Below are positions 36,280 to 42,515 of a stretch of 64,000 nt of DNA, piece by piece. Each line of letters starts with the position of its first letter. Positions within the stretch are counted from its first letter, which is position 1. The position numbers and the translations under genes were made by a program. Source of the stretch: Thermoplasmata archaeon (lineage in GTDB: Archaea > Thermoplasmatota > Thermoplasmata > Thermoplasmatales > Thermoplasmataceae); the NCBI GenBank assembly GCA_021806235.1, contig JAJZXU010000027.1:1-64000 (forward strand), given 5' to 3'. A model generated the notes under the pieces. That model made no database searches, was not told the origin of the DNA, and saw only the letters and a program-made list of their open reading frames with translations.

Positions 36280-36693
36280 ATGATAATAATGGATAACATA
36301 AATTTATTTGATAAAAACGTGAATAAAAAATATAAAGGGTTAAGAGAAGATATGCCTGCAGGCAGTATAGAAATTTTATCTCCGGATATAATAGATATTA
36401 TAATACACAATATGGGAATAAAAAAATCAATGGATTATACGGAAAATGGCATAACATACAATGTAACATTCAGTTCATATACAAAACTTGATGATGATGG
36501 AATGGTCGGAACATATGTTGATCCTCCTGAAGATAATAATTTCAGGGACATTAAACTGATAGTTACCGGTTTCCATAAAAAATGGGACACAGAGGTAACA
36601 TTATCCCATGAGTATATCTCTGTTATGCCGGACCGTGAACTAAAACATTTAATAAACTTCCAGAGGGTTATTTTAAAAACTGGCAAATTATAA
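36280..36693 (+). CDS. Hypothetical protein
   Basis: Intact 137-aa ORF with own promoter-like region. Confidence 0.5.
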   Translation: MIIMDNINLFDKNVNKKYKGLREDMPAGSIEILSPDIIDIIIHNMGIKKSMDYTENGITYNVTFSSYTKLDDDGMVGTYVDPPEDNNFRDIKLIVTGFHKKWDTEVTLSHEYISVMPDRELKHLINFQRVILKTGKL

Positions 36694-36766
36694 TTTTATA
36701 ATATTTTTTATCTGTAATATCAAAGTTGATGATAAGTATTAAATATAATATTTATATAACTTTCCT

Positions 36767-36934
36767 ATGGTAGAAATGGTGTATATAAAAAATATCGTCA
36801 GCAAAAGCGTTTCCATGATATTAGATATACATCATCATAGGGATATAACCACATCCAGATATAGTTCTGCCAGCGATAATTATTCTTTACTGAAACGTGG
36901 TTATATTGAAAGTTATAGATCCCCTATTAAGTGA
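36767..36934 (+). promoter_or_regulatory. Candidate his-operon leader ORF containing HHH
   Basis: MVEMVYIKNIVSKSVSMILDIHHHRDITTSRYSSASDNYSLLKRGYIESYRSPIK*; TATA-like TTTATATAAC at 36751; overlaps hisZ start (36897). Confidence 0.45.
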
Positions 36935-37685
36935 AATATCCAGAACAATAAGGCGGGTATTCGACGATTATAATTACATTGAAGTATTTCCGCCGATAAT
37001 TAACAGTGGAAAATTGAATGGTTTAAAACTTCTTTATAATAATAATATATACACAGTAGATCCGGATATAACACTGAGGCTTCTGGATATGAATAAAAAA
37101 TATTTTATAAACAATCCAAGAATATATTATATTTCAGGTTCAGTGGATGAATATTTAAATGAAACATTAAAGGCTGGCCTGGAGCTGATAAACAGCGATG
37201 AGTTCAGTTCAAACATTGAAATAATAAAAACTGCAATGAAAACGCTTGAAAAATTATCAGTATCTGATTATAATATAGATATAAGCCTATCCTATCTTTA
37301 TAAGAAATATATAAAAAATAAAAAATACAGTAAAATAATGGAATACATTAAAAAAATGGATTATAATGGTATAGAAAAGATGGATATCGATAATAAAAAT
37401 GAAATTATTAATTTAATGAACACAAGAACAGATAAAAGCAACATAGAATTTCTGGATAAAATTGTAAAAACGATAAATGATAATAGAATTAACATAGACT
37501 TTGGAACTGTAAGGTATTTCAATTATTATGATGGCTTAATTTTTGAAATTTACAACAGTAATGGTTTTATAGCTGGTGGTGGCAATTATAAAATAAAAAA
37601 TATGAATGCATGTGGTTTCTCATTCAATGTTAATAATATTTATAATACCGTAAAAGGAAATTTAACTGAAGGTGTGAAGAAATGA
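36897..37685 (+). CDS. hisZ: ATP phosphoribosyltransferase regulatory subunit (HisS-like)
   Basis: Degenerate class II aaRS fold: IRRVFDDYNYIEVFPPIIN, YYDGLIFEIYNSNGFIAGGGNY; directly precedes short-form hisG. Confidence 0.8.
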   Translation: MVILKVIDPLLSEISRTIRRVFDDYNYIEVFPPIINSGKLNGLKLLYNNNIYTVDPDITLRLLDMNKKYFINNPRIYYISGSVDEYLNETLKAGLELINSDEFSSNIEIIKTAMKTLEKLSVSDYNIDISLSYLYKKYIKNKKYSKIMEYIKKMDYNGIEKMDIDNKNEIINLMNTRTDKSNIEFLDKIVKTINDNRINIDFGTVRYFNYYDGLIFEIYNSNGFIAGGGNYKIKNMNACGFSFNVNNIYNTVKGNLTEGVKK

Positions 37686-38290
37686 AATTTGCAGTACCGC
37701 GTGGTAGATTAATGAAAGATTCAATAACGCTATTGAATAAATCAGGAATAAAGATAGATATAAAAGACGACAGGAAACTATTTTTTTATTCCAGTGAAAA
37801 TGAAATAATATTCCCAAAACCGATGGATATACCCACATATGTTGAATATAATGCAGATATAGGCATCTGTGGGTCAGATGTTTTAATTGAAAATAAAAAT
37901 TATGTTTTTTCCCCATTAGAACTCGATTTTGGCAAATGCAGGTTAAGCCTTATATCAGATAAAAAATATAAGATCAGGGATTTATACGATTTAAAAATAG
38001 CAACAAGGCATCCTGAAATAACATACAATTACTTCAAAAATCTTGGAATAAATGTGAATATAATAAAACTGAATGGTTCACTGGAAATTGCACCGCTCAC
38101 AGGCATTGCTGATGCAATAGTTGACGTTGTTGAAACTGGAGAGACCTTAAGGAAAAATAATTTAGTTGAAATTAAAAAAATAATGGATGTTTCCGCCGTT
38201 TTAATAGTAAACAGGGTATCCATGAAAACAAAATATGATGAAATAAATAATTTTATTGACAGTGTAAAGGGTGTTTTATATGAACTCTGA
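37682..38290 (+). CDS. hisG: ATP phosphoribosyltransferase, short form
   Basis: [39 protein letters not shown]. Confidence 0.96.
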
Positions 38291-39410
38291 AGGTTATGTA
38301 AGGAATATATTAGATGATATAGGGGAAAGAAAGGAGGTGGCACTGAAAGAATACTCAAAAAAATTCGATAATTATGCCGGGGAGTTTGCCGTAACAGAAA
38401 ACGAATTCAGGGAAGCAGAAGAATTAATAAATGAAACCGATAAAAATATTATAAAAAGAACATATGAGAGAATATATAATAACCATTTGATACAGAAAAA
38501 TGAGAGTAAGTTCAGGTTCTACAACGGTTCAATCTATGGAATAATATATAAACCGATAGAAAGAATAGGAATGTATATACCCGGGAAAAAACCATTGCCG
38601 TCAACGGTAATGATGATAGGTGCCCCCGCAAAAATAGCCGGTGTAAACGATATAATAATAACCGTTGCGCCTGATAATAACGGTAAAATCAATCCATATG
38701 TTTTGTATATAGCCAGGTTTTTAGGAATAAAAGAGGTATATAAATTAGGGGGGATACAGGCAATAGCAGCAATGTCATATGGAATTTCAATGAAAAGGGT
38801 TGATAAAATCTTCGGCCCCGGAAATATATATGTAAATGAGGCAAAAAGGCAGGTTTATGGCATTACCGGCATAGATGGTTTATACGGCCCCTCTGAAATA
38901 TGTGTAATTTCTGATGAAACATCAAATAATGATTATATAATTTCCGATTTAAACTCACAGCTGGAACATGGAGAAACCTCAAGGGCATGGCTGTTAACCA
39001 CGGATAAAAATATAGAAAATAAAATAGAGAATAAAAGAGTAGAAATCTACGTATTTGATGATATAGATATCCTAATAAATAAGGTTAATGTACTGGCTCC
39101 TGAACATTTAGAAATTCAGTGTAAGGATCCCTTGAATTTATTGAACAGAATAAAAAATGCCGGTGCAGTTTATATGGGCGATTATACACCGGTACCTGCA
39201 GGAGATTATTTCTTAGGGGTTAACCATTTACTGCCTACAGGTGAAACATCCAGATTTTCATCGGTTTTAACTGTGGATGATTTTATGAAAAAAACATCAT
39301 TTGCATACACATCAAAATCAGATTTTGCCTCAGATTCATACCTCGGTATGAGACTGGCGGAAATAGAAAATATGAATTTACATAAAAAATCTATGGAGGT
39401 AAGGAAATGA
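38280..39410 (+). CDS. hisD: Histidinol dehydrogenase
   Basis: [55 protein letters not shown]. Confidence 0.97.
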
Positions 39411-39931
39411 TAAGGAATACAGACGAAACAAAAATAGAGGTTATAATAAATAACGATAAAAATTACATAAATACGGGAGATAAAATTTTAGATCATATGA
39501 TGAAGACATTATTTTTCTATATGAATAAAAACGTTTATATTAAGGCTGAATACGATTTAAGGCATCATTTATGGGAAGATCTAGGCATAACAGTGGGCAT
39601 GGAAATAAAAAACAATATAAAAAATATAAAAAGATTCGGGTCATCCATGATGCCAATGGACGATTCATTAATACTGTTATCCCTGGATATCTCAAGGCCA
39701 TACATTAATTTCAAGGTTGATTACAGCAACGCTGAAGGTTTTGAATTAAATCTGTTATATGAGTTTTTGTGGGCACTGGCAAGAACTTTATCCATGACAC
39801 TGCATGTTATAAAATTAAATGGCAGTGATCCACACCACATAACGGAAGATGTATTCAAAAATTTAGGCAATGCCCTAAAAATTGCCTTAGAGGAATCTGG
39901 CAGGATAGAGAGTACAAAGGGGGTATTATGA
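39407..39931 (+). CDS. hisB: Imidazoleglycerol-phosphate dehydratase
   Basis: [42 protein letters not shown]. Confidence 0.96.
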
Positions 39932-40497
39932 TATCAATAATAGATATAAAGACGGGCAATGTAGCAAACATAAATAAAATATTAAATGGTAAGATTACAC
40001 TGGATCCTGAAACAATAGAGAAATCAGACAAAATTGTTTTTCCCGGAGTAGGTTCTCTTGATTATGTAAATAATATAATAAAGCCAGTTAAAAATATACT
40101 ATTAAAAAAAATAAATGATGGAACACCATATCTCGGTATATGCCTTGGCCTGGAAGTATTATATGAAAAAAGTGATGAGGGGAATACCGGAGGATTAAAC
40201 ATTTTTAATGGCAGAATAAAAAGATTTAGTGGAATAAAAACACCCCATATGGGATGGAATACCGTAACTATAAAAAGAGACTCACCCTTATTCAACGGTA
40301 TAAAAGATAATTCATATTTCTATTTCATGCATTCGTATTACCGTGAAATAGATGGTAATACAGTGGCTGAAACAGAATATAATATAAATTTTTCATCTGC
40401 GGTAAATAGATCCAGTGTGTATGCGGTTCAATTTCATCCTGAGAAATCAGGAGAAAATGGGATAAAATTACTGAAAAACTTCAGGGATCTGCTATGA
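39928..40497 (+). CDS. hisH: Imidazole glycerol phosphate synthase glutaminase subunit
   Basis: FPGVGS, TPYLGICLGLEVLYE, MGWN, VQFHPEKSG. Confidence 0.96.
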   Translation: MISIIDIKTGNVANINKILNGKITLDPETIEKSDKIVFPGVGSLDYVNNIIKPVKNILLKKINDGTPYLGICLGLEVLYEKSDEGNTGGLNIFNGRIKRFSGIKTPHMGWNTVTIKRDSPLFNGIKDNSYFYFMHSYYREIDGNTVAETEYNINFSSAVNRSSVYAVQFHPEKSGENGIKLLKNFRDLL

Positions 40498-41180
40498 TAG
40501 ATATATATCCTGCAATAGATATTTATAATGGGAAGGCGGTTTCCCTAACAAATGGAGACATAAACAATAAAAATGTTTACGGTGACCCTGTAGAGTATGC
40601 TATGAAATTTACTGAAAAAATAAAAAGATTACACATAATAGATTTAAACGGTGCACTGACAGGCAATAAAAAAAATATAGGAATTATACAGGAAATAATA
40701 AGTAATGTAGATGCTTTTGTACAGGTTGGTGGTGGCTTCAGAACATTAAATGATATAAATTATGGCTATAAAATCGGTGCAGATAGCATTATACTTGGAA
40801 CATCCGCCTTAAATGATGAAATAATTGAAGAATCCTCTATTTACAGTAATGTAACTGTAAGCATTGATGTATTTAATAACAGCATAAGGACTAATGGATG
40901 GAAAACCAACTCATATGTAAATTACAGTGACTTTTATAACAGTTTAAATAAAAAAATTAACAGGTTTATCTACACATCAATAAAGAATGATGGAACTAAA
41001 AAAATAGAAGATATACAGAAATTCTGGAACAGTGAATATTTTATGTATGCCGGTGGTGTAAATACAGTAAATGATATTATAAGCATACAAAATTCTGGAT
41101 TTTCCGGTGTTATAATTGGTAAGGCATTATATGAAAACGGTATAAAAATGGAGGAATTAAAATGCTTGCAAAAAGAATAA
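40494..41180 (+). CDS. hisA: ProFAR isomerase
   Basis: IDIYPAIDIYNGKAVSL, LHIIDLNGA, VQVGGGFRTL. Confidence 0.95.
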   Translation: MIDIYPAIDIYNGKAVSLTNGDINNKNVYGDPVEYAMKFTEKIKRLHIIDLNGALTGNKKNIGIIQEIISNVDAFVQVGGGFRTLNDINYGYKIGADSIILGTSALNDEIIEESSIYSNVTVSIDVFNNSIRTNGWKTNSYVNYSDFYNSLNKKINRFIYTSIKNDGTKKIEDIQKFWNSEYFMYAGGVNTVNDIISIQNSGFSGVIIGKALYENGIKMEELKCLQKE

Positions 41181-41914
41181 TTGCTGCTCTTGATGTAATA
41201 AATGACTCGGTTGTTAAGGGTATAAATTTTGAAAATATAAGAAATGTTGATAACCCCGTCGAGCTCGCAAAGAGATACGAAAAGGAAGGTATAGATGAAA
41301 TTGTATTTTTAGATATTACTGCAACAAATGAAAAAAGGAATATACTGAAGGAACTTGCCAGAAAGGTGGCATCCGAGATTTATATACCGTTTACGGCTGG
41401 AGGTGGCATCACTTCAATAGAAGCTGCACTGGATATAATAAAAAATGGTGCAGATAAGATATTTATCAATACATATGGAATAGAAAATCCTGAAATAATT
41501 ATAAAATTATCGGATGTACTTGGGTCTGCAAATACAGTAATAGCAATAGATGCAAAATATGAAAATAATAATTATTATGTGTACTCACACGGTGGAAAAG
41601 TAAATACACATAAAAATGTAATTGAGTGGGCGAAAACAGTAGAAGATTATGGTGCCGGGGAAATACTGGCAACATCAATAAACTATGATGGCACAATGGA
41701 TGGTTACGATAACAATCTAATAAAATTATTATCAGATAAGGTAAATATACCGGTAATAGCTTCCGGCGGTGCTGGAAAACCTGAGGATTTTTTAAACGTT
41801 TTTAGATCAGGTGCGGATGGGGCACTGGCAGCATCAATATTCCATTATAAAAAATATGGTATAATGGAAATTAAAAACTATCTGAAGGAGAATGATATAA
41901 ATGTCAGGCTATGA
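41162..41914 (+). CDS. hisF: Imidazole glycerol phosphate synthase cyclase subunit
   Basis: [47 protein letters not shown]. Confidence 0.97.
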
Positions 41915-42515
41915 TTTAAAATTTGATGAAAACGGTTTAATCCCCGTGATAGTACAGGATTATGAGAATAATGAAGTTTTAACCCTGGGATATATGAACA
42001 GTGAAGCCTTTAACAGAAGCCTTGAAACTGGGTATGTCCATTATTATTCAAGGTCTAAAAAAAGAATAAGAATGAAGGGTGAGGTAAGTGGAAATACACA
42101 GACCATAAAGGATATAATGATTGACTGCGACAGTGATACACTGTTAATTAAGGTCGATCAGAAAGGTAGTGCATGCCATCTGGGTAATAGAAGTTGCTTT
42201 AGAAATCTGGATGAAAAAGCAAATAAAAATTATATAGATTATTCCTTAGAGGTTTTATTAAATCTTGAAAATTTAATTTACAAAACAAAGGAGACACCGA
42301 GAGAAAATTCATACACAACATATTTATTTAACTCAGGAGAAGAAAACATAAGGAAAAAGGTTGGTGAAGAGGCCGTTGAAACAATTTTAGCAAAAACTAA
42401 TGATAGAATAATCTACGAAACATCCGATTTATTATATCATCTACTCGTCTATTTATCATACAATAATATAAAAATATCGGATATAATGAATGAATTAAAC
42501 AAAAGGAAAAAATAA
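41901..42515 (+). CDS. hisIE: Bifunctional phosphoribosyl-AMP cyclohydrolase / phosphoribosyl-ATP pyrophosphatase
   Basis: [28 protein letters not shown] (HisI) and [13 protein letters not shown] (HisE). Confidence 0.96.

Follow-up and report, generated by a model that had tools for sequence, protein, structure and literature searches.

A conserved histidine-codon leader ORF before the his operon of Ferroplasma and related archaea, and its likely role in translational attenuation

The histidine biosynthesis operon of Ferroplasma and its relatives, which are acid-loving archaea, is preceded by a short open reading frame (ORF) with a run of consecutive histidine codons, and it is near certain that this leader exists as a conserved element. 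We consider it likely that the leader is histidine-responsive and controls the his operon by translational attenuation when histidine is scarce. The DNA from which this proposal arose is a stretch of 64,000 nucleotides, referred to here as the window, whose genus is, as judged from its hisZ relatives, that of Ferroplasma acidarmanus Fer1 (G009). In the window, the leader and its histidine codons are located as follows:

36767..36934, plus strand: His leader ORF of 55 codons, ATG to TGA, peptide MVEMVYIKNIVSKSVSMILDIHHHRDITTSRYSSASDNYSLLKRGYIESYRSPIK followed by the stop (from the ORF list and orthologues in 13 other genomes)
36830..36838, plus strand: three consecutive His codons CATCATCAT, the proposed stall site (three to four consecutive in-frame His codons in 14/14 leaders)

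The original prediction, which had described a 55-codon ORF with three His codons in front of hisZ, thus finds its ORF at the same coordinates, with ATG 36776 as an alternative to ATG 36767 for the start. Likewise confirmed are its 38-nt overlap of leader and hisZ, counted from GTG 36897, and the stop in the hisZ frame (TGA at 36891-36893 of the window sequence). A 137-aa ORF for which no Pfam match was obtained is located upstream of the leader (window 36280-36693).

Taken alone, a single run of His codons means little, since the 1.93 Mb genome to which the window belongs contains the motif CAYCAYCAY 286 times, both strands counted; arithmetic from this genome-wide count yields a chance of about 1% for a three-His-codon run in any frame of a 130-nt leader. 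It is the comparison with relatives that lends the run its weight. When 117 genomes of the order were searched for HisG, 17 proved to be his-bearing, and 14 of these, from three genera, possess an orthologous leader, that is, all nine his-bearing genomes of the window's genus (the Ferroplasma group, including F. acidarmanus Fer1), all three of genus g18 (G026, G191 and G216) and both of genus g19 (G027 and G334). A separate search for HisZ in 61 genomes identified hisZ in nine genomes of the window's genus and in G026, and each of these ten carries an ORF at the equivalent place, with a start such as MATEMYIK and a run that reads IHHH, HIHHH or HIHHHH in leaders of hisZ loci. The leader precedes hisZ or, in g19, hisG; in the window's genus its TGA stop lies inside hisZ. 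What the orthologues have kept is (i) the reading frame, (ii) three to four consecutive in-frame His codons, and (iii) a TATA box of archaeal type some 24 nt ahead of the ATG. Hence, the check that the original prediction had named gave the opposite of the lack of conservation that would speak against it, with ORF, His run, promoter spacing and overlap geometry all kept among the relatives. Its own caveat that the CAT run might be a chance trinucleotide repeat can be discarded, because ORF and in-frame run are conserved in 14 genomes with CAC substituting for CAT in some.

The three HisG-bearing genomes in which the leader is absent are G239, G016 and G047. No small ORF with a His run precedes hisG in genera g16 and g8 and in family f5, or in 30 loci from other families of the class, for which the view extended over 1.5 kb flanks of hisG and operons with another first gene fell outside it. 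As side observations, the his genes of G016 (genus g8; L185:2390-4397) exhibit overlapping broken frames that are possibly assembly frameshifts, and G001, a genome of the window's genus with 80% completeness, gave no match for HisG or HisZ, so that its his operon may have been lost or may be missing from the assembly.

That the leader is read as codons is indicated by several of its properties. Its frame is open in all 14 cases (the single frame-0 stop counted for L184 is the leader's own terminator), whereas the other two frames contain stops, and the probability that a shuffled leader stays open amounts to 0.02-0.07 each. Gaps in alignments within a genus are multiples of three. The His codons are CAT or CAC, the latter in L008, L009 and L064, and this exchange favours conservation of codons over conservation of bases. 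The remainder of the peptide drifts, with pN/pS mostly 0.6-1.0, as is expected if the codons and the RNA alone matter; leader peptides are usually weakly constrained. One might instead regard the leader as encoding a working small protein which, for example, binds a metal through its His run, and the start motif M-x-x-x-M-Y and the HIHHH run kept in most leaders would fit such a product. The pN/pS values just given, the lack of any Pfam match for the peptide, a C-terminal part that is dictated by the overlap with hisZ, and the occurrence of the leader solely before his genes in the loci examined make this reading very improbable.

The genes downstream of the leader form an unbroken chain of overlaps from hisZ to hisIE:

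36897..37685, plus strand: hisZ, HisRS-like regulatory subunit of ATP phosphoribosyltransferase, start GTG 36897 or TTG 36906 (Pfam tRNA-synt_His, 1.2e-19)
37682..38290, plus strand: hisG (short form), ATGA overlap with hisZ (Pfam HisG, 7.2e-51)
38271..39410, plus strand: hisD, 20-nt overlap with hisG (Pfam Histidinol_dh, 2.4e-120)
39407..39931, plus strand: hisB (IGPD), ATGA overlap with hisD (Pfam IGPD, 3.5e-34)
39928..40497, plus strand: hisH, ATGA overlap with hisB (Pfam GATase, 5.6e-17, and operon position)
40494..41180, plus strand: hisA, ATGA overlap with hisH (Pfam His_biosynth, 2e-50)
41162..41914, plus strand: hisF, 19-nt overlap with hisA (Pfam His_biosynth, 2.2e-69)
41901..42515, plus strand: hisIE, 14-nt overlap with hisF (Pfam PRA-CH and PRA-PH)

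Since all eight genes overlap end to start, a gate placed at hisZ could gate the whole operon, and overlapping gene pairs of Haloferax volcanii have been shown to be translationally coupled (PMC6728339). Regarding the start of hisZ, the original prediction had placed it at or after 36897. This stands in so far as GTG 36897 is a possible start; the correction to be made is that TTG 36906 may be the start instead. Both codons are conserved in the nine members of the genus, and hisZ in this genus is devoid of a strong Shine-Dalgarno (SD) sequence. With the TTG start, the N-terminus would be equal in length to those resulting from the ATG starts in g18, and GTGRT would then represent a weak SD. 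The two codons are located in the same hairpin arm (see below), and the choice between them leaves the argument unchanged. A frame-shifted hisZ start was considered and ruled out, since each of the 12 hisZ loci preserves both frames.

The geometry of leader and hisZ also lends itself to plain translational coupling, in which the leader simply delivers ribosomes to hisZ (or to hisG in g19) and the His run is useless for regulation or merely slows ribosomes mildly. The leader stop indeed lies inside hisZ, or the leader is ATGA-joined to a relay ORF in g19, and coupling as such is known from Archaea (PMC6728339). We nevertheless regard this explanation as quite unlikely, since the leader stop does not coincide with the hisZ start but lies about 35 nt beyond it, no part of the peptide other than the His run is strictly kept across three genera, and the placement of a hairpin at the His run would go unexplained.

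This hairpin is the key element that the original prediction had missed. Its 5' arm is found at or just after the His codons and its 3' arm holds the hisZ start; in the window, the minimum free energy (MFE) fold and its pair table give:

36842..36852, plus strand: hairpin 5' arm GATATAACCAC
36897..36907, plus strand: hairpin 3' arm GTGGTTATATT, within which fall the hisZ GTG start and the greater part of the possible TTG start

In 12/12 hisZ loci the predicted MFE stem, computed with default parameters at 37 °C, connects the start or ribosome-binding region of hisZ with the His codons or with bases that immediately follow them, and is thus predicted to sequester the hisZ initiation region. The register of the stem differs between clades. 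In F. acidarmanus, GAAATAACCAC pairs with GTGGTTATTTT, with a double change at one pair when compared with the window; for L006-L009 it is the last His codons themselves that base-pair with the GTG region; L010 and L062 show a CTGTTTG/CAAACAG pairing beside a possible SD (AGGTCAGAAAATG); and the His codons of L061 form direct pairs with ATGATG. We take these differing registers to mean that the same outcome is maintained by different pairings. When stems were compared with those of shuffled spacers, the combined p value according to Fisher was 2e-5 for eight representatives, one of which (L064) was computed with a probably wrong hisG start or leader end, and this value, like that for stalling given below, is optimistic because loci within a clade share ancestry and are not independent; for the window alone, p is 0.11. 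Covariation of pairs is limited to one double change (U-A / A-U / G-U), accompanied by several one-sided changes that preserve pairing.

The pairing seen in L061 might suggest that the CAT repeats are kept as RNA and not as His codons, CAU being complementary to AUG and hence able to pair with a start codon. We find this scarcely credible: the CAT run lies outside the stem in L001-L005, three genomes retain the histidine with CAC, and the run never leaves the leader frame.

The hairpin also bears on the level at which regulation would occur. His-codon leaders of bacteria classically act on transcription, as does E. coli hisL, and archaea couple transcription and translation, so that an untranslated hisZ mRNA could be terminated. 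Accordingly, one may envisage transcriptional attenuation or polarity, with the position of the ribosome on the leader deciding whether RNA polymerase enters hisZ, for example by factor-dependent termination on untranslated RNA. Several findings render this unlikely. Between leader and hisZ there is no hairpin followed by a T-run, and in 12/12 hisZ loci the stem ends at the hisZ start region and not at a U-run. No site resembling an intrinsic terminator (GC hairpin plus U-run) is present in 36690-37000, and an Rfam scan of 36600-37050 gave no His_leader match at E up to 5 and nothing above chance.

We therefore return to translational attenuation, for which energy modelling provides further support. 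A stalled ribosome was imitated by masking the leader as far as 15 nt beyond the first base of the last His codon, and the cost of opening the hisZ start was recomputed. The modelled stall lowers this cost by 1.5-10.6 kcal/mol, as compared with means of -0.1 to 2.5 for shuffled sequences (Fisher p ~3e-6, seven representatives). The effect is weakest in the window itself (ddG 1.5, p 0.12). The same masking applied to 47 window ORFs of at least 150 codons gave a mean of 0.4-0.8 and a maximum of 4.9, and the opening cost of the start region averages 6.2 for window ORFs versus 7.4-16.3 at hisZ loci. The last His codon is separated from the hisZ start by 49-61 nt, which is enough for two ribosomes by usual footprint sizes. 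The energy model thus supports the view that a stalled ribosome would open the hairpin and leave space for a second one.

How ribosomes might reach the leader is suggested by its promoter region:

36739..36746, plus strand: TATA-like box TTAAATAT, centre about 24 nt before the leader ATG (from the sequence and the spacing in other loci)
36751-36758, plus strand: second TATA-like box TTTATATA (from the sequence)

In 11 other loci with an unambiguous TATA-like box, the leader ATG follows the centre of the box at a distance of 24-26 nt. For L001-L003, the TTAAATAT box is found at about 24 nt and a stronger match at 12 nt, the latter being compatible with initiation at the second ATG. From this spacing we infer that the transcript is probably leaderless, with its start at or near the ATG of the leader ORF; leaderless mRNAs are said to be widely used by Thermoplasma (PMC7531240).

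The mode of action that we propose can then be formulated. With an mRNA beginning at or near the leader ATG, ribosomes would load straight onto the leader ORF. With ample charged His-tRNA, they would cross the His codons fast and the hairpin would re-form behind them, burying the hisZ start, which would also be covered by ribosomes that continue as far as the leader stop, 38 nt inside hisZ. Upon shortage of histidine, a ribosome would pause while a His codon occupies its A site, and would cover or open the hairpin's 5' arm. The hisZ start, which lies 49-61 nt beyond the last His codon, would be exposed, a second ribosome could initiate, and translation begun at hisZ could pass to all his genes through overlap coupling. 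The original prediction had regarded the ORF as a candidate His-codon leader that might act by translational coupling or by ribosome stalling. Conservation of ORF, His run and geometry in relatives supports this reading and, because the hairpin joins the His run to the hisZ start, opening induced by stalling is the more specific proposal.

A different layout is observed in genus g19, where the leaders (MEAWMVSGGVVCNSAFLSGAFMHHHSHQY...) directly precede hisG. In G027 and G334, the hairpin AGCCATCAG/CTGATGGC follows immediately after the His codons and is located away from the likely hisG start, and a relay ORF of nine codons (MIQAASVTP and MIQAALGCA, respectively) shares ATGA junctions with both the leader and hisG:

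L064:3384-3413 and L184 2304-2333 (reverse complement): relay ORF between His leader and hisG, ATGA at both ends, conserved in two g19 genomes

The two ATGA junctions would favour translation of hisG when the leader is read through, which counts against the stalling reading. The modelled hisZ switch is not transferable to g19.

The leader appears to be particular to the his genes. No His-rich leader is located upstream of hisS, no comparable Trp leader precedes trpB or the trp operon, and the block before ilvB lacks a clear codon run, so that a general system of amino-acid leaders can be ruled out. In five Ferroplasma-group genomes (L162:1414-1575 and L163-L166), this block of about 60 nt with a TTTATCTAACAYCTGTGGCG-like core is conserved some 70-150 nt before ilvB and is accompanied by short GTG-start ORFs; it may represent a further leader or an RNA element.

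Attenuation by leader peptides is a textbook mechanism of bacteria, and the archaeal locus shares with such attenuators of amino-acid operons an ORF encoding HHH or HHHH before a biosynthetic operon, here in 14 genomes. It resembles the his attenuator of E. coli and Salmonella (hisL; Rfam His_leader), in which a short ORF with a run of His codons likewise precedes the his operon and adjoins an RNA structure. hisL acts by transcription termination at an intrinsic terminator, on a bacterial mRNA with an untranslated leader and an SD. The archaeal locus, in contrast, has neither a terminator-like site nor an Rfam match, its mRNA is likely leaderless, and its leader overlaps the first gene by 38 nt. 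In the proposed manner of action it resembles ermC/ermCL, for which translational attenuation has been described (PMC10219788), in that a ribosome stalled in the leader ORF would open a hairpin hiding the initiation region of the next gene. However, stalling in ermCL depends on a drug and the nascent peptide, whereas here it would occur at hungry His codons, in a leader that overlaps the gene and in an archaeal host. Control of initiation by amino-acid state through a hairpin is also exerted by the SD-sequestering T-boxes of actinobacterial ileS (PMC1262725), which, however, read the tRNA directly and without a leader peptide; before actinobacterial histidine operons, no conserved RNA structure was reported (PMC1262725). 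Finally, the ATGA overlaps that link genes here from hisZ to hisIE, and in g19 from leader to relay ORF to hisG, resemble the termination-reinitiation coupling of Haloferax volcanii (PMC6728339), which involves no sensing and to which the His-codon leader would add a conditional gate at the first gene.

A tool paper states in general terms that upstream ORFs regulate genes in Archaea too (PMC10219788), and in the open-access literature that was searched we found no archaeal leader-peptide attenuator of an amino-acid operon. What we describe has the appearance of a histidine sensor operated by the ribosome, a type familiar from bacteria and, to the extent of this search, not described in Archaea. 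The balance of probability favours the fuller proposal that it represents the first archaeal amino-acid attenuator based on ribosome stalling, in which a leaderless His-codon ORF unmasks a start site and gates an operon of overlapping, coupled his genes, with a second architecture (leader-ATGA-relay ORF-ATGA-hisG) in a related genus. Such a conserved case would show that archaea, like the bacteria with which they are compared here, read the supply of aminoacyl-tRNA by the position of a ribosome, and that they do so on leaderless mRNA and at the level of translation.
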